Assembly: GCA_947034885.2 (NCBI GenBank)
Contig: OX344751.2
Coordinates: forward strand, 46,157,082-46,221,081
Reading direction: 5' to 3'
DNA length: 64,000 nucleotides
From: Thuidium tamariscinum
Taxonomy: Eukaryota > Streptophyta > Bryopsida > Hypnales > Thuidiaceae
The notes beneath the pieces are model-generated. The model made no database searches. It was not told the origin of the DNA and saw nothing but the letters and a program-made list of their open reading frames with translations. The translations under genes and the position numbers were made by a program. Shown in pieces: positions 2,460 through 44,466 of the stretch (the first letter of the stretch is position 1; each line of letters opens with the position of its first letter).

Positions 2460-4119
2460 CCTTCAGCGAGGAACTAATGCGAGAAGTCTGAAGTGGCAGT
2501 GTCCTCCGTGATAGATCAGAACCAAAGCTGTCTGGGCTCCGTCCAACGGGCGAGACCGGAAGGTAGGCAACTTAACTTCTGCGAGTGAAAGGGAAAGGGC
2601 CAGGGAAAGGCGCGAGGAGAAGGAGAAAGCCAAGGCAAGGAGGAGCGACTGCCCTGGGCAGACACGTGCCGAAGAAAGACAATCATTCGCAGTGGGGCAT
2701 AGCGAAAGCAGGCAAGTGACAGGCAGGCCGAAGAGCGGAAAGTGGGCGCCACGGAACTACCTTACCTCGGTGGAGCCGGCAATATAGGTCGCGGGCGACG
2801 AATTGGCCGGTAAAAGCTGGCAAGACGGACGGAGGAACTGCGCGACGGAGCGGACGGAGATGGCCGAGCCAGGTCGCGGGTCGAGGGGTCTGGCTAGTCT
2901 TCCGTCAGTTCCCGCGGGCGGGCCCGCGGGCAGGCTCCCCAGCTGGCCCACACGCTCTCCCTCTTCCCCCCCTCTCCCGACTGTCAGACGTCTCCCAGTA
3001 CCGCGTCGTCCAGGTCTCCATTTCCACCCAGCTGCCTGCAGCAGGAGTAGCACAAGCAGCCCAGCCTCCAACTTTCCCCGCTAGCTGTGCTCCAGTGCAG
3101 AACTTACCTCACCTCTTCGTCGCCATCGCCGAGCCTCGCTCCCCTTCCTCTCCTAGACTCCTCTTCTCGCTCCCTGCTTCCCTCCCCCTTCGCGTCCTCG
3201 TCTTCTCCACCGTCGTCGTCGTTGTTGTCGTCGTCGTCGCCACCCTGCGCATCTCCGGGGGCATCTCTGCCATTTTCTTCCCTTTCCGCGTGCTGCTGTA
3301 TTTGAGGACACGTTCCGTGTGCGCCAGCTCCACAGTTTCTTCCATCTGGTCCGCATCCCACGTCCAGACGCGGACGCGTTCCATCTCCCGTGACCTTGTG
3401 CGTCATATTTTATCAGACGGAGTTGGAACTTCTGCGATTGAATCCTAGTGCGCTCGGATTACCTAACGGTTATCCGTGAGATCAGGAACGGGGAAGTGGG
3501 TGGGTGGGTGGGTGATGGATGGGGGACTTTTGACTGCGCGTGTTGGTCTTCTTGTTTCTCCTTGTATTGTACAGAGATTTTGATTTTTTGTTTCGTGATC
3601 CACACGGTGTGGTGGATGTGCGCCCGTCATTGTGGGTCCATAGTCGGGTTGTGGACAGAGCTAATTCTTCTTTGATGAGAGAAAGCTGAAGGGCTCTTGC
3701 GAATCTTCGAAGGGACGCATTGTTCTGCGGTGTTATGAATGGGAGTCAGGAGAGTTGATTTGCTACCGATGGGCTGCACCGAACTAGGGAGTACAAGGTC
3801 TTGATGGAATAATCTGGAGCATCATCTTCAAGTTTGCTGGATTCCGTGCGGAGTAGCGGAGGAATTGTTGATTGCGAGGGATTGCCGAGCCTGCGAAGTG
3901 GATGAAGTGGGGCATCAGACAGAATCGAGAAGGCAAGAACCGTGTTCGATGGATTTGAGATTCAGGTGGCAGTTGGCATTGTGATCGGCTTGGGGCATTG
4001 CGAAGCACTGCACGCTCGTAGTGTTTCTTCACTGGATCACCTTCTTCAGTGCCGCTTTCGGGGTGGGGGTCGAGTCATCCACCAGCGCGAAGGTCTCGAA
4101 TATTCTTAGAATTGCAGCC
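2460..4119 (+). promoter_or_regulatory. GC-rich promoter and 5' leader of the GATL gene
   Basis: This segment is much richer in G+C and CpG than the AT-rich surroundings. It includes a long pyrimidine-rich stretch (about 3095-3290) with a GTC/GTT trinucleotide run near 3212-3240. Short open frames on both strands here look like by-products of low stop-codon density, and none resembles a known protein. No clear TATA box is seen, so the transcription start is not located. A pyrimidine-rich tract ending TTGTACAG at about 3573 is a good 3' splice-site candidate, and GTGAGATC at about 3476 a possible donor, so a short 5' leader intron is possible. Several ATGs (for example near 3737 and 3801) lie before 4120 and could be upstream ORFs if transcription starts far upstream. 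Confidence 0.5.
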
Positions 4120-5256
4120 ATGGTGCACAGCAGATCGGACAGTAGGATTCTAGCATGGTCAGTGGTGGTCCTCACTTTTTCCTCCTTAGTTTCTGCAATA
4201 AGTTCCTCCCCATTCGACTTTCCGGCAAGGGCCGAGCTGCACTCAGAGCCTTTCTCCGAATCTCAAGGTCCGGGATCTCAAGTTGCGTCAGAGCCAGCAT
4301 GGCCATTATTTAGAGAAGCACCGGCATTTAGAAATGGTAGACAATGCGCCTTTGTCAACAGAACCGAAAACGAATTAGACCATATATGCGACCGAAACTC
4401 CGTGCACATTGCAATGACTCTTGATGTGAAATATCTTCGAGGCTCCATGGCTGCCGTTTTCTCCATCTTGAAGCATACCGCATGCCCGGAGAATGTTATC
4501 TTTCACTTCTTTGCCGCGAACCGCGATGAGAAGTTGCGATCTCTCATATTTTCCACGTTCCCTTTCTTGAGATTTAAGGTGTATCACTTCAATGAGGCAC
4601 TGGTGAACTCGAGGATCTCGCCGTCTGTGCGGCCTGCGCTGGAACACCCATTGAACTATGCACGCAGCTATTTGTCGGATATCCTGGAGTCGTGCATTCA
4701 GCGAGTTATATACTTGGACTCCGATCTTATCGTGGTAGACGACATTGTGAAGCTGTGGGGGACGAAGTTAGGCCCTCATGCCATCGGCGCTCCGGAGTAC
4801 TGTCATACAAATGTGACGAAATATTTCACTGATGCGTTCTGGAGCAACAGAACCTTGTCTCGCACCTTCGACGGCAAGAAGCCTTGTTATTTCAATACTG
4901 GAGTTATGGTGATGGACATGATGAAGTGGAGAACCGAGAATTATCGTGCGGTGATCGAGCAGTGGATGGGAGTGCAGAATAGGTCGAGAATATATGATCT
5001 GGGTTCGCTGCCCCCATTCTTGCTCGTCTTTGGAGGATCGGTTGAGCCAATTGACCACAGATGGAATCAGCATGGTTTGGGCGGAGATAATCTGGAGGGT
5101 AAGTGCAGGCCACTGCATCCAGGTCCCGTGAGTTTGTTGCATTGGAGTGGCAAGGGCAAGCCATGGATCCGAATTGACCATAGGAAAACATGTCCTGTGG
5201 ATAGCCTCTGGGCCCCTTATGACCTTCTTCGTCCCTCCGCATTGTCGTACCAATAA
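4120..5256 (+). CDS. GATL-type galacturonosyltransferase-like protein (GT8 family)
   Basis: Predicted 378-residue glycosyltransferase family 8 protein of the plant GATL group (the PARVUS/GLZ1 type). By family knowledge these act in the ER/Golgi in pectin or xylan synthesis, with a nucleotide sugar as donor. Seen: a hydrophobic signal or anchor at residues 10-26; HIAMTLD at 96-102; LNYARSYL at 178-185; the metal/nucleotide-binding DxD in YLDSD at 198-202; [12 protein letters not shown] at 255-266; [10 protein letters not shown] at 295-304; [12 protein letters not shown] at 313-324; and the C-terminal HWSGKGKPW at 341-349. Possible N-glycosylation sites lie at N80, N231, N243 and N287. The length fits the family, as does the single uninterrupted exon. 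The frame stays open upstream to 3985 and a GTG lies at 4021, but the ATG at 4120 has a strong plant context (GCAGCCATGG) and directly precedes the signal-like segment, so I chose it. Which GATL clade and which acceptor cannot be told from sequence alone. Confidence 0.95.
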
Positions 5257-27549: not shown

Positions 27550-27553
27550 TTAA

Positions 27554-29359
27554 CCCTAGAGCGTCAAGTCTCAATTGACAAATGCCGAGCACACTAAAGA
27601 GGTTGAAATGTGCTGATAAGGATGCGCAGAAGGTGTTTGAGAGAGTTAGTGAAGTAGCTGTATGATCTCGAGAGTTTGCCCATCTAGATCATAAAAAAAA
27701 AGGTGGAAATGAATTAATACTAGAGAGATGGAAGATCATGAGGTTTGACCAGTGTCACAACGGCATTGACTTGAATGGGCAAGTTATGACGCTGTGGAAG
27801 ACGAGCCAGTAACTAGCTTGTCAAAGTTCAGAAAAATCAATGAATAATTGCTAAGCACTCATAACAAAATCTGGGACTTGTTGACAAGAAAATCTTGGGG
27901 AGAAGTACATTGTGGTGATAAAGGAAGACCTTGCAATGCAACTGTATTTGAGAAGACATGGATTTCTAAGAATTTGTCATGTATTTGCCCAGCCCACTCA
28001 CTGCTCGATATTGATTATCATATTATATAAGATGCATGTGCGGTCTGACAGCGTGCAATAGTTTTATTGCAGAAAAGGAGTAATATAGTAGCCCCTTTTG
28101 GATGGAGTGAGGTTAGTCAACATCAAGCAACTGTCGACCGTTACAACGACATGAATCTGCATTCCTTCTTGGGAAAAGATGATGGCCACTAGCTCCGTAC
28201 TAACTGTAGTCTGCACTAGGATAGATGAGAATTAGAAGAGAAAATGAAGTCAGCCGCAATGGAAATACGAGTTCAACTTCACAAACATAGGTGCTGTTCC
28301 ACTGACGTGCATCTGTGAATAATGGCGGCATTACAACAAAAAATTGTCAAAAAGGCATAGTCTTTGTGATGCCTACACCCATGATATTTACAAGATTGCA
28401 ATGGCAAAAGTTGTCAATCTAGGACGGAAGTGCTAAACAATACATGATGGAATCATTGGACACCACATACATTGCCCACTCAAGGCCCGTCAATGCTTTC
28501 TGTGCACTCCATATCGACGATATGCCTTCCTCCCTCTGTAGTGATTGAGGATGCGTTATTGATCATTGTACAACTACTCACAATGGATCTGGAGGTTCAA
28601 AAAAATATTCTCACTGATTTCCATCGAAGAAGACATGCATTCCACAACATTATTACTTGCTTGTCACATTGACCACAACTATAGTACACTTGAAAATTTT
28701 AGTATATTTGGAGCCTTGGACAACAAACCCACGATATAAAGAAGTGCATTCACATTAGTGAATACATGTATTTGAGCTTGACAACAATGCTAATGCGAAC
28801 CTCGTAACGCAGACTGCCCAATTGTTGCCAAAGAAGGACTCCTAATTCGTGAGTTCTCCATAACATTGTTTGCTATAGCAGTTGGTCGGTGTGTCACAGG
28901 TACACTCACCTCATAATGCTAAAACATACACGCTGCCTCTTATATAATATTGAATTCAATGAATTTTCCATTCTTCATGCAAGTTCCATGCCACTCCATC
29001 TTCCGAGCGCCATCTTTAAGCATGCTGGAGATCATGCGGCATGCATGGCTTTAGTGACTTAAACAAATGTAGCTGCTTCAAAAGTAGTCACCCATGCATA
29101 AGAGGATTTTCAGCTGCAGTAAGAGACTGCGAGTTCCCAGACGCTGGGAATGCATTGGGAACTCTGGGAACGCGATGCTGATGTGGTCGAGCGACTGCCA
29201 CGTCAGAAAAACATATTTTTTTATTAATTTTAATTAAATATTAAATATTTTTAAAATATTTTTTTGAAAAAAAAAATATTTTTTTAAATCATTTTTTCTC
29301 TCTTTAATACATTCTGAAGTTTTTTGAAAAAAAAAAATTTAATTTTTTTTTTGCAAAAT
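27554..29359. other. Left interior of the piggyBac element
   Basis: No protein recognised. The short frames at 27848-28030 and 28472-28672 have no domain. Near 29125-29170 the word TGGGAAC and its complement recur several times (GTTCCCAGACGCTGGGAA), which may mark the edge of a secondary insertion ending near 29400. Confidence 0.35.
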
Positions 29360-31150
29360 TCAAAAATTCAGACCAGCAGGGTGCTGGTCTGCAGCAGTGG
29401 GAACAATTTCGGGGAACACCCTGAAACGGTCTCTTGGGGGCCCAGAAATCCTCTTATGGTACAAATATATACCTCCACATTGCTCACAACTGAAATTTGT
29501 CCACTTCGTGGACATGCAAAAGCGGCACTTTTTCCAAAGCGGTGTGCAAATGAGATTGTGGACCCCCAAGGTGGTCTACTGATACTTCAAAACGCAACCA
29601 CATTGTTCATGCCACGACTTACAAAGCACCTTATAAAATAAGAGGAAGAAATCGCGACGTGGTTTAGCAAGCACCACTAATCGCTCACAGATAGCGTCGT
29701 ATAAGATGAATGCATTCACAGCTAAAGTATCCAAGAGATAAAACAAGACACATTGCCACCATTTCTAACTATGTGTTTGTGTAGAGTAGGAACCACACAT
29801 TTGATTAGCGACATTGACATTGCGCATAAAGTCAGTATAGCCTTTGTGGATTGGGGACATCTCAATTTGCTCCTTGATACCACAAACTCTACAAGTAACT
29901 ATCAACCACAATTCTCCCAATCAAGGTAGAGGTGTGAAAAAAGAAGACGACAACAAGACAAGTCGCATGTCCACCCACACAACACAACTGGTCTTCCTAC
30001 TGCATTTGCCATACTATAGTACTTTGAGGTTCTCTAGCGAACCGATGGCGTTGTGACAAGGCTCTCGGTAAGCCTACTCGGTTTTTCATAATTGTTCCCG
30101 TTGAGAATGTTCCAAGAGTTGCTAGGTCCACGGTTAGTTAAACAAAGGAGAAAAAACAATTAGTCACTACAATATGGCCTATTCCATGCAGTCCATCCAT
30201 CAAAAGCATGACAACTTTGTAGGTGGATTTTGCTCCCCAAGGCCCAATTTTATGTCGAGCTCCTTTTCAAGCCTTGCCAATATAGATGTCAAAGTCATAC
30301 ACGTACTTTTTCTAGGCATCTGCAATCACTGTAACAAAACATGGTTAAAAAAATTGCGTAGAAATTTTTTTGTAGTTTTTTTGCTACATTTTTTGAATAC
30401 CTTTCCATTGACATATGACACACTTCCTAACTCTAGAAATTGTAGTAGAAAATTGTTGCTAAAGTTGGTTGTTCACTACGCGTAACACGTAAAAAAAACG
30501 TGGCAAAAAAAAACACAAAAATTTTCTATGCGGTTTTTTTCAACCATGTTTTGTTATAGTGAGTGCTCTTTTGTCCACGTCATCTCTACATACTCTCGGT
30601 AAAATATGTGGGCAAGAGCCTTCTAGCTTGGTAGTCGAGGGCAATGATTTTGTGGACGTGGATTGTTGGCATTGTAGGCAACGAATGTGGGAACTGCTAT
30701 AGGTACGCCTTGAATTCTGCTGACAAAGTCCACAGTAGGTCCACCTCGTGACAGCCTATTCTAAGGTTGTTAGAAGTAGCCACCACTATCAATTGCATGT
30801 CCATGTGGCAATGGTAGAGATGCTTTCAAGCTTGTGTCAAGTGGATTGGCAGGTAAGGGATTTGCGCAGGTTCTTGACATCCACTTTGGCACACTTGATG
30901 TCGACACTGCTACTTAGTGATCGACAAGAACGCAACACTGACTTTCTTCAAGCATTGGCACTGCAAATGAATTAGCTGACACTTGGAACATCGTTTGAAA
31001 TTACTCATCATTACTGTCATAAAGTAGGGTACGCAAGAACGACGCGCTAAAGGCGAGAAGAATGTCGTCACTTTTGTTGGGAATATGGGGCGTCCACTGG
31101 CATTGTAAGTCCGCTTATGGTGTTGGAGGTGGAGCAAGGACGCCACAAAC
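29360..31150 (-). pseudogene. piggyBac-type transposase (DDE_Tnp_1_7) remnant
   Basis: Minus-strand motifs run in the order expected for the family. Near 31000-31100 is a possible N-terminal block (YFMTVMMSNFKRC). At about 30270-30313 is YVYDFDIYIGKA, then GPWGAKSTYKVVM. At about 30136-30190 is GIGHIVVTNCFF, which matches the usual vvtDNfFt with Asp replaced by Asn. At about 30060-30130 is DLATLGTFSTGTIMKNRVGL. At about 29690-29850 is FMRNVNVANQMCGSYS, matching GGVDvaDQm with both Asp changed to Asn, followed by KWW and YLLDTLAVNAFILYD. At about 29450-29535 is a Cys-rich tail (CRFCMSTKWTNFSCEQCGG). There are many stops and frameshifts. The segment that should hold the first catalytic Asp is not recognisable and is interrupted by the insertion at 30327-30561. 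The enzyme is clearly dead. Confidence 0.75.
30327..30561. mobile_element. 235-bp CACTA-like MITE inside the transposase remnant
   Basis: The inverted tips are CACTGTAACAAAACATGGTT and, reverse-complemented at the right, CACTATAACAAAACATGGTT. Pairing continues into A-rich tracts. It interrupts the transposase between its N-terminal part and the YVYDFDIYIGKA block. Confidence 0.75.
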
Positions 31151-33794
31151 TTCTCCTTCTCTCATGTGAGACGGTGATGCTAAGCTGTCAATGTGGTGTA
31201 CGCCCGTAGCTGCAGCAGCAGATTGGAGATGTTGCTCATGCCTCAAAGACTGATAGAGTACAGGTTGTTGAGGTGCATGCCTATGTCGTCGAAGAGGTGC
31301 TATGAGCACGATAGTGTAGGTGTTTGATGACTCCACTGGCATGATCGAAGACGGTGTTTCAGATGGTGATGTCAATTCCTTCAAATGAAGGATGTTGGCG
31401 GTGGTACCTTTTGCAGGGATTGCTTTATTTACCATAATGTATTCTACTTATCTCTATGGAATGAAGAATTCTTGTCCATCATCAGGGAGTACAATGTACT
31501 GAAAGTTGCTACTCCACACTATCAACGTAGGACTGAATTGCTAAACCACCATCACCCATGCCGCTCATAGTACGATAAATTGAGCATTGTATGATGGCAG
31601 AACACCGTATTCTTACCGGAATGGGGTCAACAATGTTGCGAAGAAAGATGTGGTTAGTGCCATTGCCAAGTATGTACACTTTGCCTTCCCATGATAATTT
31701 TGGGCTGAGGCCTAAGGCATGAGGGAAGTCGCTTGTCATGGATGTGTGCTGTCTGTCTCCATAACCTTGATGTGGACAGACTTCTGAACTTGGTGTCTAT
31801 GATGCCACCGTTGTTGGCATGCTTCATTGAGCCATTTTGAAGGTGTTGTGGCCTTTGTTGATGCATCCCATCTACACAACTTTTGTGTCTACTTGTAGTA
31901 GGTTGGTTTAGGTCGTTGCGCCTCTGTATTGGTAGTTTTGAATGTCTTTTTGTTTGGAATTGAGGTCCATGTACATTCATTGCGCATGATGTCTCCTCAT
32001 TTCTGTTGATCGTACGAAAAACTTCCTCCCAAAGAGTTTCCTTGGGGCTCCGTATGCTCGGTAGTAGGGGTGACCTATTCATTTGATTCATGTATTCTAT
32101 TGTTTGGCTATAGGTCGTTGCAGAGGACGTTGTTCACAACAGCACTGAACTCGTTGGGATGGCATTCTGGAATTTGCTCTTTCCAGCCAAGGATTCTGGC
32201 AGTGTGATATCGGAATAAGAAACATGAGCCTCTCGGACTATCTATTCTTTTAACTCTTCTCCTAACCGCTTTCTACAGCAACATTCTTTTATCAAGCAGT
32301 TTTAGAATTTTCCGTTTCTGAGCCTGCGATGCTTCTATCTCAGTGGTCCACTATAGAATAGCTAAGTGGATAGAATGTGATATACAGCTTGTACTTAGTG
32401 AAGTAGCCATGACATTAATTTTCGCGTTTGTTGGTACAACTATGAAGATTGGTGAATCAAGAACATACTTCTCAATTTTGTGGTACCAAGCATGAGGCAA
32501 CTGATATCAATTTACATGTGCAGTGTCATCAACTGGAGGCTACTACTAGGACGGAATCAGCACCGCATGACTTCAATTGAAATAACCTTGTCGGCCTTTA
32601 GGACTGCAACATATTGACAAACCATATTGTTGACATACAAGAACCAATGTATTCACAGTGATGGAAGGGAGGCCACATTCGGCAATGAAAAGGTAGAAGA
32701 CAAGTTTCACTAAACGAAATTACTGATGAGGATATAACAAATTATTTTACAAACCTACCATTCTCTTTTATGGACACTGCAATATTGTCTAAGGCTTATA
32801 TGCTTTCAATCTCTTTTGTAACAAAGCAAAACCCTATCTATTTTGCATTCTATTACTAGTCATGGAAAGCAAGCACCTGATTACAGGCATTCGTGAGCTT
32901 GAATATTGTAAAAGAAGTTGTATTCAGGATTCCCAAGTGGAGGTTGGCAAAAGAGGACCATTAGGACACTAGGACATGCATGTATGTTGATTTTTTTCCC
33001 CAATTCTTCTTCATTACTATTGATTGAAATTTAAGAATCATAACTGCAATTGAGGATAGTGACAGTACCTACACATTTAGATGAGGGTTAGTAGCCATTC
33101 TTTCATTGGAATAATAATTAGTCAAAATTACTTTGCATAGAAAACATTTATTCATGTCCTGCACAGGCAATTACAGTAGTGCATGGGCTGCCTCTTCATG
33201 GCGTTTGTACATTCAATTACTTCCATTTGTGATTGTACAAAACAAAAACCTTTAAAAAAATCTACATGTAAAGGAGCACTACTGGTAATTTTAAGGTCCT
33301 TCATTTACAAGCGCCATTTCCTTAGGCAAACGCCTAACCACCAAATCCAAAAACTCGTAATATAAAATAGTTTATTATATAGTCACTGCCATGCGGCATG
33401 GTATTGTACAAGTTTGCCTTTATTGAAGTGCCACATAATAAAGTAGATCACTATATTTTATGACATTATCAAAGACTATACTTCCTTTTTTTAACAAAGA
33501 ATGCCGAGGACTATATTTACTACCCACCACTGAATTTTGCAAGGACCCTTCCAAATTTCATATCCTTCCACGCCGGGTAGTGCCAAATTTTTACCACATA
33601 TTGACATGTCTTTGATCTATTATTTTTTCCTTTTGTTTGCAGTCCACAAAATGAGTCATGTAACCACCAATGCCATTACAACCCAGCACCACAATGTCAC
33701 AAAAAATGGCAGATGAAAAAATGTATTTCTCTATCCTCTATGATCAGCTAACTTTGGTCATCGTCCATTTTCTAGACGTCAACACACTCTAGGG
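31151..33794. other. Right interior of the piggyBac element
   Basis: The minus strand has open stretches (31115-31435, 106 codons; 31654-32091, 145 codons). They are rich in Ser, Pro, Gln and His and could be the disordered N-terminal region of the transposase, but no motif proves it. The part from 32100 to 33790 is stop-rich with nothing recognised. Confidence 0.35.
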
Positions 33795-35258
33795 TTAAGA
33801 GTTAAGGTATAGAACCAACTCTCCCTTCAAGTTCAACAACACTAGGATGTGAGTATGTGAGCGTGAGCCTAATAGTGGTGAGCGGGGATTTTGTGAGCCT
33901 AGAGCCCAAAATTTTAATATTTGATATATTTTTAAGACTTTTCTAGTTAAAAGATCAAAAGATTGATTTTTTTTCCATCAAAATGTACTATATTTTGAGA
34001 ATATAACCTTTTACCGTGGGACCTATGACCGTGAATTTTAGATTCAAAAGCTTGACAAGTTGATGTTATTGCAAGTTTAAAATTTATATTACATTTTGAG
34101 AGGCCGTCTCAAAGTAGGTTAAGTATAAATAATTTAGAGGCACTTCTAAATATGAGAAGAAGATAAATGAGATGATGATATTATAGGGAGTAGAATGTTT
34201 TATAAATAATAATAAATTCTTTCATTGCAACAAAGAATACATATTGAAATTTGAATAGAATATATTGCTACTAAATTTTGGGAATTTCAAAAATAATATA
34301 CCATGGGTATTATGTATGTACTTTATATGTGCTAATATCTTTCAAATAATTCTTGTTCATTCACATGTCCTAATGATTACAACAATAGCAAGCACTTGTT
34401 TTCACTTCATCTAAAGTGGTGGTGAAAATACAGATGAACATGTCTATCTTACAATCTAATTACAAAATGCATAATCAACAAAAAATGTAATAAAGGTGTT
34501 TGTAGCTTAAAAATATGCCACACTTTCAAATGGAAGTCCCATTTATTCTTCGAAAATGGAGACAAGTATAAGTTGAAAATTTGCAAAATATAATGTTAAG
34601 AACCTTCTAATTAGGGTCTGTCCCAAACAAAGCATATTAAGTTAGCCAAATCTATGCAAGGAACAAAATTCACCTTAATAACATTATGTTTGCAATAATA
34701 TTTCTTGCACTTTCCTAGTGATTGCATTGATTTTTGGTGAATGCCTTACTACTCCTATGAGTTTGCTTGCCATTCAAAATGAAAGGGATTTTTTCAACAT
34801 GTATTGGTTAAAGATGAATCCACTATATATAGTCAAAAAGCCTAAACAAGGTGTATAGACATCGAAGTGACATTGGCTTGATGAACTGTAAGTTGAACCC
34901 AACTTTTTTAAACTTAATGATTTTGGTATATGTAAGATTTTTATTAATAAAAACATGCTAGACCTTAAGGATCTTGGGTTGGTACCTAAGAACATGGAAA
35001 TGCTTAGATTCCATGTCCCATTTTGCAATTTGGTTTGAACAAAACTAAAAATCTTAAGTTTGAAATGTCATGCTCTTATACTCACACTTCTGCCTTTTTC
35101 AAATAGGGAGGAGTAGAAGGTGTACTAGGCTTAACAAACAATAATAATCTTGTATATGGCCTATATGTACTTTTGAATGGCTTGACATTGTTACCTTAGT
35201 TTGTGTGAATTTTTTTCTATATATATGCAATTTTGATGTATTATAATCTTTTTATAGA

Positions 35259-36689: not shown

Positions 36690-37320
36690 AAAAATGCTAA
36701 GGTTTTTTACAATGCATTTAATTTTTTTGCCTTCCTAATGGATAGCCATTGACGGCCACACTATTTTGGATCCAAATTTGTTTTCAATGAATGTTAAAAA
36801 TTGATTAACTTCTACAATTTTTCTGCCCTTTCAATGGGCAGCCGTTAACAACAATGCTTTTTGAACTTAAGTTTGCTTTCAATACAAGTTAGGAATTGAT
36901 CAAATGCTGTAGTTTTTTTACCTTCTAAATGGGCAGCCGTTAACGGCTATGGTTTTTGAATCCAAATTTGTTTTCAAGGAATTCTAGAAATTAGTCATCT
37001 ACTACAATTTTTTTACCCTTTCAATGGGCAACCGTTACCGACAATGTTTTTTGAACCTAAATTTGCTTTCAATGAATTTAGGAATTGATAAAATACTATA
37101 ATTATTCTACTTTCTCAAGAGGGGGCCATTAATAGCTATGGTTTTTGGTTTCAAGTTTGTTTTCAATACATGATAGGAATTGATCAAATGTTGTAATTTT
37201 TCTACCTTCTCAATGGGTAGCCGTTAATGGCCATGATTTTTGAACTCAAGTTTGCTTTTAATATATGCTAGGAATTGATCAAATGTTACTATTTTTACAT
37301 TCCTAGTACATAGCCATGTT
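36690..37320. repeat. 95-bp tandem repeat array, about 6.5 units
   Basis: The anchor word GGGCAGCCGTTAAC and its variants start at 36741, 36836, 36931, 37026, 37121, 37215 and 37309, so the period is 94-95 bp. Units also share TTTTTGAA(C/T)CCAAATTTG(T/C)TTTCAA, then AGGAATTGATCAAATG. One unit holds the palindrome GCCGTTAACGGC; AACGG is the core of some plant MYB sites. Confidence 0.9.
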
Positions 37321-41381: not shown

Positions 41382-41639
41382 ATACATTTACAAATTAAAC
41401 CACTAGTTTCCACATACAAGTGTTGAAACTAATGTAGCAAGTACGATACATTACTTGTGGTTTTTTAATGATAAAAAGAATCCTATCCTATTCTATCTAT
41501 AGGATCCTATATAACTTATGTGGTTTCTCCATGATTGAGGAACACCGTTTTATTATCAATTTTTTGAATTTATTGATTTATTCTACTAGTGTAGTGTATG
41601 CGACACTACTTTGCGGAGGTGGCACTATTTTGAATAATT

Positions 41640-42829
41640 CTCGGCACCTAGGAATTGTTCTGATCCTCTCCCCATTTCCACCAGCACTGTCTGTCCTGCC
41701 TCCAAATCATGTCCAATTCTGAAGCCTGCATGATTGGCCTCATTGGTGCAGACTTTCCTCCTTGAGCATCTCTGAAAGGGAGGAAGAGCTCCTCCAACCT
41801 TTTGGTGAGGTTGCATGACTTCCTTTCGAGTCTCCCCATCCCGGAGATCCTTGGTGGAGGCCGTCGGCACTCGGCAGGGGGACTGAGTTGAATGCCGGTC
41901 AGTTCCCTGCTTTGTGTCCTGCGGCCCTTCTCTCTCATCCCCTTGACTTGAACGGAGATGGAATGTGAGAGAAGAGAAGGGAAGTTCTCTTCCCAACAGC
42001 CTCTGCCAGAAGCGGAGTGCACCGAGCAGTCCATGCCAATGTCACCACGTGGGTGATAATCAGGGTTGTGGGTCATGAATTTGGAATGAGTTGCGTTGCA
42101 TACGGTTGCAAGGCAGCCCTGCCTTTTCTTGAGACTCGGGACTCGGGACGCCAAGTCCCTTCCCTTCTGGGGTCTGGACAGCCCTCTGGATGGATCCACA
42201 GCCTTCCCTTCCCAGATTTGAGAAGGGCTGCCTGCCTCCCTGCCTGCGTCTCCTTCAGCTCTTGTGCAAATGATCGAGTTGGGTTTGAATTGGAGGAAAC
42301 GTTTCTGGAGGTTTCCACTGCTGACTCCTGGCCGGGTACACCCAGGTAACCCACATTAGATATGCTGGTCTCCCGAGTGGAGTGCCTGGTTTCCCAAGTG
42401 TTGGGGAAGACTTTCATGTGGCCCAGCCAGTCAGCAGCCTTGCCATGTGGAGGGCCTCATTGGAGAAGAAGGCTTGATTGCGGAGAAAGTGCAGTGCCGG
42501 CCACGAGGTGAAAAAGAGGCAATTGGACTGGACTGCACTGCACAGCACAGGCAGATCATGCACTGTCCTGGACTGGACTGCACAGGAGCTACAGGCTCAC
42601 CTTCCCTTCGGAGAGGCCCAAGGGAGGCAGTCTCCTCATCATGGAGCTCCGACTGGATGAAAGGGAGAGAGTATTGTACGGAGCCAAAAAGAGACTCGGA
42701 GCAAAAGGCTCCCGTCCGTCACTCATGCCAACAGCTAAGTCAAGTGTGAAAACAACAACTGCGTGGAAGCATGATTGAGCTGCAGAGGCTCAAAAGAAAA
42801 GGGGGAAAAGAAACAAAAGCAGGAGGTAA
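41640..42829. other. GC-rich island without a recognised gene
   Basis: Sharply GC-richer than its AT-rich flanks, with overlapping open frames on both strands (minus strand 41648-42199, 183 codons; 42073-42417, 114 codons; plus strand 42017-42349, 110 codons). None resembles a known protein and several overlap each other, as expected for low stop density. Repeated CTGGACTGGACTGCAC words occur near 42525-42590. It may be a gene fragment, a promoter or CpG island, or sequence carried by transposons. Confidence 0.35.
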
Positions 42830-43238
42830 GAGCATCACCACCCGCCTGGGATTTTGGATGACTTGTTAACAGGCGCCTGCAAATCGACCCCACCCGTCTG
42901 GCATAATGGATGGCCTGTTCGTTGGAGCGGCCTGCAAGTGCTCTCCGCTTGGCAAAACGACCTCGTATTGCAGGCCAACCCACGGCCTGCTCATGGCTTG
43001 CAAAACAGAATGAGACAACCTGTTTCCGCGATACCTGCGGCACTCCCCCGACTTCAGTGTGGTTGTAGGCTACCGTGGTTGTAGCTCATTCGGAGTTGAG
43101 GCCCCCAACTCCGGACGAGAAAAATCAACGTCGACCTGTTTACGGTGAATGGGTGTGGTGCAGCTCACCACCTGACTTGAAAAGTGGATGCCTCTGCATT
43201 TTGCAAGCCAGCATTTTGCCAGGCGGGTGGTGATGCTC
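42830..43238. mobile_element. TAA-flanked MITE 1 (PIF/Harbinger, Tourist-like)
   Basis: The ends GAGCATCACCACCCGCCTGG are perfect inverted repeats over 20 bp. TAA lies on both sides (42827-42829 and 43239-43241). It is GC-rich and non-coding. GAGCATC tips with TWA duplications are known from Tourist-like MITEs. Confidence 0.85.
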
Positions 43239-43347
43239 TAACAAGGCAGGACGGGAGACCAAGCAGACCTCAAATCAGATCACCCCAACCCAATTGCAAC
43301 CCAGACTTCCAGATGCAATCCCAGGCAGGCATCCCAGTGGAGAATAA

Positions 43348-43722
43348 GGGCATCCTCAATGCATGCAATATAAACGCACTGCTTCAATGCACTCGACATC
43401 TCTCATGTTACTTTTAAAGCCGCGGCATTTCTTGGCTCCCACTCAGCAAAAAATGGCCTTTTGTTGTGCCCTCCAAACTCCTCTGCATTTATCTGACAAC
43501 ACCAAGAATAGTGACAATTCAAGATCCTCCTCACTTCACACACCTTTGCATTCTATTTGTTGTCGCCACTTCAGCAATAAGGAACTAAAGCCGAGCCTTT
43601 GAAGTTCTAGGTATTGTCCCAGCATTGAGGCACTTGCGACGGCAAAGAGACTTAGAAGAAAAAGGGAACGCGATTGTTTTTGTTGCAATGGCATTTTGAC
43701 ATGCGAAGGATTGAGGATGCTC
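43348..43722. mobile_element. TAA-flanked MITE 2 (PIF/Harbinger, Tourist-like)
   Basis: The left end is GGGCATCCTCAATGCATGC and the right end, reverse-complemented, is GAGCATCCTCAATCCTTCGC. TAA flanks both sides (43345-43347 and 43723-43725). It lies 109 bp from MITE 1. The short frames across it (43363-43602) are not supported. Confidence 0.8.
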
Positions 43723-43725
43723 TAA

Positions 43726-44466
43726 GATAAGGTATGCACATAGAACACCTTTCATCAACACTCCCTAAAATGAGACGCCTACATTTAGACCAAGAGACAT
43801 AACATTTTTTTAGATAAGGCAAAAAGACTCATTCTCCGACCTATTTCTATTCTTTGTCTCTAGACTCACCTAATTATGTTCATAGACTTAGCTTAGGTGA
43901 TTGTGTCTTTGACAAGCTAAACATTGATTTGTTGATTCATCTGAAAGCCATGTATATAATTTTGATTAGCTAACAATTAAATTTAACAAAGTTCTAATTT
44001 AGGTGCACCTAGCTATATGACAATTTCAATGATTTAGGCAACTAATACTTTAAAAAATCATCGAAATTACATACAACATTCGAAAAATCTAATCTTTTTT
44101 TTAATATTCATGATTTTCACCCGCTACTAATACTACGAAAATATTATTATTAGAAAAAGATGCCTCCAACTATGCTAAATTCCTTATATTAAGAGTTTTA
44201 AGTGCTTCCACCTTAAAGATTATAGAAGAGAACACTATCAAAACACCACAGCAAATGGATGTAAGTTAATTGGTATTCGGTACACCTAGAGATAAGACTT
44301 CAAAAATTCACAACTTATTTGTATGGTGTCGAAGTAATGCACATTGTAAAGAAAACATGATCCATTTGTGTCAAAAATAAATTAAAGATAAATAAAATAA
44401 TGCATGCTACATTGTATTGGAATTGTTTTTTAGTAGCTAATAAGATCTAATAATTACAATCTTTCT
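43726..44466. other. AT-rich intergenic, nothing recognised
   Basis: No open frame or repeat boundary seen. Confidence 0.35.

Follow-up and report, generated by a model that had tools for sequence, protein, structure and literature searches.

A decayed piggyBac-type transposon and its numerous relatives in a bryophyte-like genome

Introduction

How does a piggyBac-type transposon come to lie in what appears to be a land-plant genome, and does it stand alone there? The question is raised by an element at 27550..33798 of a 64-kb stretch of DNA (G000:C3:46157082-46221081; hereafter the window, meaning this whole stretch), which a first-pass annotation, made from the sequence without database searches, had described as a decayed piggyBac-family transposon. 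We conclude with high confidence that the element is the dead remnant of a plant piggyBac transposon, and that many relatives, some of them recently mobile, share the same bryophyte-like genome. Taken alone, the window copy is a dead transposon of an ordinary kind; what makes it worth study is its intact relatives and an extra conserved domain.

Results

Ends and transposase of the window copy

We found that the element has inverted ends, each with a TTAA target site. Each end consists of TTAACCCTAGAG plus 3 more bases, and the two 15-base inverted repeats are 93% complementary (Table 1). The repeat begins with CCCT at both ends, has one mismatch, and is 11 bases long without the TTAA and 15 with it. 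Within the window, the 8-mer CCCTAGAG and its complement occur only at the two element ends. When the window locus was resampled 200 times under a first-order Markov model, a TTAACC..GGTTAA pair with at least 9 of 12 bases matching appeared 3 times.

We compared the window copy to a sibling, L041 (C1:40078250-40085250), whose element is 6729 bp long and has TTAACCCTGGAGCG ends, both matching those of the window copy. Blocks of the two elements align at 58-69%. When 1 kb of flanking DNA was added on each side, the alignment began exactly at 33798 and overran 27550 by 7 bases. That is, it stops at the element ends, and these are therefore taken to be the ends of the mobile unit, as the first-pass annotation had proposed from the TTAA-flanked repeats. 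Genome-wide DNA matches that stop at 33798 were rejected as evidence for this boundary; the query itself ended at 33798. In the sibling locus, a further TTAACCCTGGAGCAC end lies at L041:6942, ~130 bp past the element, as if two related elements adjoin.

Table 1. Coordinates of the features of the window (BLANK cells, none given)
Feature	Position	Strand	Remarks
Whole piggyBac-type element	27550..33798	minus (5' end at 33798)	6249 bp; TTAA and inverted ends; blocks align to sibling L041
Left terminal inverted repeat	27550..27564	+	TTAA target site 27550-27553; 14/15 complementary to right end
3' part of element	27550..29096	-	no recognised coding; 27550-28646 is 63% identical to L041 5709-6810
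Second nested MITE	29097..29458	none	362 bp; ends CATAAGAGGATTT; 13-nt arms 100%; interrupts Cys-rich tail
Transposase C-terminal part and Cys-rich tail	29447..30004	-	other frame; profile 294-470; 115.1 bits; 3 stops
Transposase catalytic domain, middle part	29931..30335	-	profile 179-316; 102.6 bits; 4 stops
Nested palindromic MITE	30327..30561	none	235 bp; CACTG...TAGTG ends (CACTA-like); at the site of the ~600-bp loss
Remnant of upstream conserved domain (ORF1)	32087..32377	-	37.6 bits, E 5e-13 with 8-family profile; 3 stops inside
Right terminal inverted repeat	33784..33798	-	TTAA target site 33795-33798; alignment to flanked L041 starts here
Intact GATL-type glycosyltransferase gene	4117-5253		Glyco_transf_8 176.8 bits (frame 3985-5253)

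The transposase motifs that had been read on the minus strand lie where they were described, and membership in the family Pfam DDE_Tnp_1_7 (PF13843) withstood a frame-joined profile search. With its two frames joined, the remnant scored 76.6 bits (E 2.8e-21; Pfam cut-off 22.4 bits) over profile positions 167-349 of 349, the C-terminal half only. A single-frame piece scored 44.6 bits (E 1.6e-11), and when nine minus-strand pieces of the window were tested singly, the middle transposase piece alone passed the cut-off. A profile of relatives scored 102.6 and 115.1 bits in two minus-strand frames of the window copy (Table 1), and in the other four its matches were no better than E 1.9. A six-frame search of the 3' part of the element gave no Pfam match. 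Protein identity to L043, a relative that keeps all three catalytic aspartates, is 55-67% (55% over 120 positions in the middle part and 67% over 183 in the C-terminal part).

None of the three catalytic aspartates (the DDD triad) survives in the window copy. The first was deleted, the second is Asn (VTNCFF, compared to VTDCFF in L041 and L043), and the third is also Asn (RNVNVANQ, compared to RGVDVADQ). The window copy is therefore dead. Its C-terminal Cys-rich tail still aligns, though split by an insertion. It belongs in the piggyBac superfamily by descent alone, not as a working member, and we found nothing against membership by descent.

Deletion, nested insertions and decay

The word "decayed" fits the stops and the two frames of the transposase. 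It does not cover the absence of the N-terminal half of the catalytic domain, and the first-pass annotation also missed two nested miniature inverted-repeat transposable elements (MITEs) and the remnant of an upstream open reading frame (ORF). Relative to L041, ~600 bp were lost (L041 3440-4047), coding for profile positions 1 to ~178 and including the first catalytic Asp. That is, the N-terminal half was lost outright, beyond mere decay. Upstream of the palindromic MITE it was not found by Pfam, by tblastn with 129 proteins (the 120 listed database proteins and nine family cores) or by two profiles, because it is deleted relative to L041. Matches in tblastn started at ~30335, although one of the best 25 started at 30422, and none lay upstream of 30567.

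The palindromic MITE has inverted arms of 32 nt that are 91% alike, with exact ends read by eye. Its 3-bp flanks are AAT and AGT, so that a target duplication is imperfect at best. The 362-bp MITE has 39 other scored copies in the genome, 95-99% identical. A DNA query with the whole element gave 2682 first-look candidates, compared to 12 for a 3.2-kb part without it; most of the 2682 are therefore probably the MITE.

Substitutions between L041 and the window copy are lopsided: 479 are C>T or G>A in the direction of the window copy and 255 are the reverse, in a pairwise count with no outgroup. Such an excess is consistent with methylated, silent DNA. A third sequence, L042, was tried for polarizing the changes and gave 0.243 C>T plus G>A versus 0.12 A>G plus T>C per site for the window copy, and 0.139 versus 0.164 for L041. 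These counts were not used because of a ~5-kb insert in L042 and a poor alignment of the three sequences (42-44% identity with L042). The window copy would be an old insertion from which ~600 bp, with the first catalytic Asp, have gone and into which two MITEs have inserted (a presumed order for the deletion and the palindromic MITE). Stops, a frameshift and C-to-T changes have also built up in it.

Related families elsewhere in the genome

A genome search with PF13843 gave 659 first-look candidates. We scored 116, a set that does not include the decayed window copy. All 116 were over the cut-off (245-276 bits), they lay on contigs C1-C10, and 74 had no internal stop (hand count). There were no candidates in 14 control genomes. 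The loci fetched for study were the top scorers and are therefore biased towards intact copies.

We examined nine families, with cores 34-74% identical to one another. The catalytic aspartates are invariant at all three places across the nine (alignment A1), as are several Cys and one His in the tail. Around the ORF, TTAACC...GGTTAA inverted ends were present in all 10 long loci (9 families), bounding elements of 4896-7936 bp; in L035 several inverted-end pairs compete and the exact ends are uncertain. In the resampling control, run on nine of the long loci and the window, such ends appeared in 0-3 of 200 resamples. The main frames of the fetched elements span 628-1214 codons between stops.

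The 11 copies of one family are 5096 bp long. Of these, at least 7 are identical and the other 4 are 99.94-99.98% identical; the single gap of L030 falls at an edge. All 11 have TTAA at both ends, and their left flanks (56 bases) are at most 41% alike. Near-identical copies with unlike flanks point to recent transposition and not to duplication of a single locus. Intact piggyBac copies in this genome can probably still move. In working relatives, the most likely mechanism is that an RNase H-like transposase with three aspartates and a C-terminal Cys-rich domain would bind the CC-starting ends, excise the element at TTAA and reinsert it into another TTAA, presumably without a scar; the chemistry is a prediction.

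The window copy appears to have a lineage of its own. A database protein near it in the tree described below, P0154, gave 91 genome matches (89 of 770 candidates scored). A top group of 40 matches has 452-551 bits and 44-53% identity, and the next match has 439.5 bits (hand count); below this group are copies of the L039 and L032 types, at no more than 440 bits. Nine of these 40 matches are free of internal stops (hand count). Based on these scores, we infer that the 40 are the window copy's own lineage. A DNA query with 30567-33798 gave 11 other matches at 8 places in the genome, 66-92% identical, and 4 of the 8 places lie within ~3.1 kb of a P0154 match.

A conserved domain upstream of the transposase

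We found a conserved domain of ~125 amino acids, which we call ORF1, upstream of the transposase and on the same strand in 8 of the 9 families, in L041 and, as a remnant, in the window copy. In L041 it scored 49.7 bits and was accompanied by a full catalytic domain over two frames (342.8 and 200.3 bits), with the same order and strand as in the window copy. The exception was family L032, in which ORF1 was not detectable. The domain is new here. It had no credible match in Pfam or among solved PDB chains (best E 0.15), and it was absent from all 120 transposase relatives searched (the best 120 of 396) and from 120 GATL proteins searched as a negative set.

It is possible that ORF1 is a chance or passenger reading frame, unrelated to transposition. 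In 7 of 8 families it lies in a frame other than that of the main ORF, and it lacks relatives in the sets just listed. We consider this unlikely: leave-one-out profiles recovered the domain in 8 of 8 families (1e-10 to 1e-54), always upstream of the transposase and on the same strand. In addition, where ORF1 and the main frame overlap (six families), 4 of the 15 family pairs are alike in the ORF1 frame and none of the 15 in the main frame. The domain would then belong to the transposition machinery, most likely as the first exon of a longer transposase (an N-terminal exon) or as a separate helper protein. The main frame is +1 relative to ORF1 in the 7 families (for example, element positions 638-1492 and 1017-4085 in L022). 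This relation suggested programmed frameshifting. We set the idea aside, since the overlap shows no conservation of the main frame and four of the families are closely related; coincidence, splicing or frameshifting may each lie behind the relation. We hold the chances about even that this bryophyte genome carries a large, long-established piggyBac clade with several mobile families and an upstream component of its own, making two-part elements.

Between ORF1 and the catalytic domain, the N-terminal parts of the L022 and L040 main frames share a stretch of ~40 amino acids (AHV..E......K.L.L...DG.I...C.GAV.R). It may resemble a Tudor/SH3-like fold, and it had no credible Pfam match.

Kinship of the plant families

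A nine-family profile matched the PDB chains of piggyBat (9c0f; E 9.9e-50) and piggyBac (6x67; E 1.2e-49). Its Cys-rich tail aligned weakly to that of piggyBat (8.0 bits). An AlphaFold model of a database relative, P0125 (predicted local distance difference test, pLDDT, 85.4), matched 6x67 (E 4.7e-25; template modeling, TM, scores 0.66 and 0.72) and 9c0f (E 3.5e-24). The piggyBac fold was thus found in a model of P0125, not of the window copy.

At E 1e-5 there were 396 database proteins, and the best 120 were considered. Three of these carry an organism name, each that of an animal (wasp, spider, stick insect); the others are jgi, lgn or ena entries. We built a tree of 46 rows from 36 of the best 120 proteins (hand-picked for length and spread), the nine families and the window copy. 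The tree holds no named fungal, algal or oomycete sequence, and proteins without an organism name could come from plants or from other organisms. A clade (100/99) unites 24 such proteins with the plant families and the window copy, with the three named animals outside. Within it, the window copy groups with P0154, P0157 and P0183 (100/99) on a long branch (1.42), as a further (tenth) lineage. The tree with animal and algal transposases that had been proposed was thus obtained on the animal side, with the families apart from the three animals.

Discussion

Origin and status of the element

The reading as a plant piggyBac transposon with mobile relatives has several weak points. The superfamily rule, as given in the part of PMC10175614 consulted, is TIRs of 12-19 bp that start with CCYT; the window repeat, 11 bases beyond the TTAA, is slightly shorter, and some family ends start with CCCC or CCCA, others with CCCT. 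Both siblings read are broken: L041 has a frameshift, with two stops in its catalytic part and two more in ORF1, and L043 has one stop within the catalytic stretch. When the joined decayed piece of the window copy was itself the query, phmmer reached only E 0.33 to piggyBac in the PDB, and there was no match at E 0.01 among 570 candidates from a large protein database. Present-day activity of the relatives is a deduction from their sequences. Finally, none of the best 120 of the 396 database proteins comes from a named plant. Transposons are often masked by plant annotators, so this is no proof of absence.

The choice between an old plant lineage and arrival by transfer, as framed by the first-pass annotation, can be narrowed. 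Suppose that a single recent horizontal transfer from an animal was followed by spread in this plant lineage. According to the portion of PMC10175614 consulted, piggyBac is widespread especially in metazoans, and every organism named in the best 120 of the 396 matches is an animal. We consider such an event quite improbable: the nine families are 34-74% identical to each other, compared to 30-34% for the three named animals to L032, and the nine group with the 24 unnamed proteins in a clade that leaves out the named animals, where the window copy forms a further lineage. Nine diverse families in one clade without the compared animals therefore disfavor a recent single transfer. An ancient transfer, for example from fungi, algae or oomycetes, may have occurred. 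An excerpt of PMC7466625 reports that mariner-like elements of the moss Physcomitrium are closer to fungal ones, which offers a lead, by analogy, for transfer.

Some eukaryotes have domesticated piggyBac genes that serve the host, and this is the sole point for reading the window copy as the pseudogene of such a gene. A domesticated gene would have lost its ends and sit at a single fixed locus. Here both inverted ends and the TTAA are present, L041 has the same kind of ends elsewhere, and the siblings are dispersed, so that a pseudogene is very unlikely. Contamination, or an assembly chimera with animal sequence, would have undone the first-pass reading; we found no support for it and regard it as the most improbable of the alternatives. 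The window lies inside a 47-Mb contig, there are piggyBac matches on each of C1-C10, the nested MITE occurs at its 39 other scored places in the genome, and plant NAC domains are present in the assembly. The element is best explained as the dead remains of a plant piggyBac transposon with kin, some of them recently mobile, in the same genome.

Relation to known systems

The plant elements share with piggyBac of Trichoplusia ni (6x67) the TTAA sites, the inverted ends starting with CCC, the DDD domain and the C-terminal Cys-rich domain. They share with piggyBat (9c0f), a bat element, the catalytic domain and, weakly, the Cys-rich tail. They differ from both in their length, 4.9-7.9 kb with main frames of 628-1214 codons between stops (the 6x67 chain has 594 amino acids), and in their upstream conserved domain, and the window copy is dead. 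Teratorn, a medaka piggyBac-herpesvirus element, also has a piggyBac transposase and a TTAA target, according to the part of PMC10175614 consulted. In contrast to Teratorn, no viral genes were noticed in the plant elements read, and when viral contigs were scanned with the family profile, 77 stretches fit a pattern and none encodes a relative.

That piggyBac is seldom described in land plants, as the first-pass annotation stated, is a fair statement with exceptions. Six TIR superfamilies are given in a 2022 review on the transposable elements of land plants, and the word piggyBac is absent from the portion consulted (PMC9033089). A passage of another paper, however, places PiggyBac among the superfamilies in all groups studied, land plants included (PMC4438587), and a single repeat-table line gives 1230 PiggyBac elements (122 kb) for Ceratopteris, likewise a non-seed land plant (PMC6890710). 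Among the papers that our searches of the open-licence PMC literature returned, no title or abstract describes piggyBac families of bryophytes, and we do not claim priority. Two papers were rejected as sources: PMC10619864, considered for piggyBac in moss, uses only the word piggybacking, and PMC8232201 has the word only in a reference.

With candidates in the hundreds, several families intact and some copies near-identical, piggyBac would count as a transposon that works in plants. Native plant enzymes would then be available for inserting and removing DNA without a scar, and whether plants inherited piggyBac or received it by transfer would become testable. Should the upstream domain take part, it would add to how piggyBac works.

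Host genome and other features of the window

The assembly has 363,211,507 bases in 19 contigs. It contains 27 matches to NAC plant transcription-factor domains, one of them ~0.5 Mb from the window on C3, and 14 control genomes contain none. The window carries the GATL gene that had been noted. Its best named matches are Sphagnum proteins (69-74% identity), with one Camellia entry (60%) among them, and it is 96% identical to a database protein without an organism name. The earlier view of a land-plant genome is upheld by both the NAC domains and the Sphagnum-like GATL gene: the assembly is that of a land plant, bryophyte-like and probably a moss.

A GC-rich region at 41600-43100 (0.496 in 42001-44000) has several overlapping ORFs of 116-235 codons; four were tested and had no Pfam match at E 0.01. 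A tandem array at 36764-37296 has units of 95 and 189 bases, with 73-78% matches. Three pairs of dispersed repeats are also present (13626-14043/45880-46297, 97%; 21389-22331/57649-58612, 77%; 1310-1966/15234-15870, 82%), and these are perhaps other young and old transposons.

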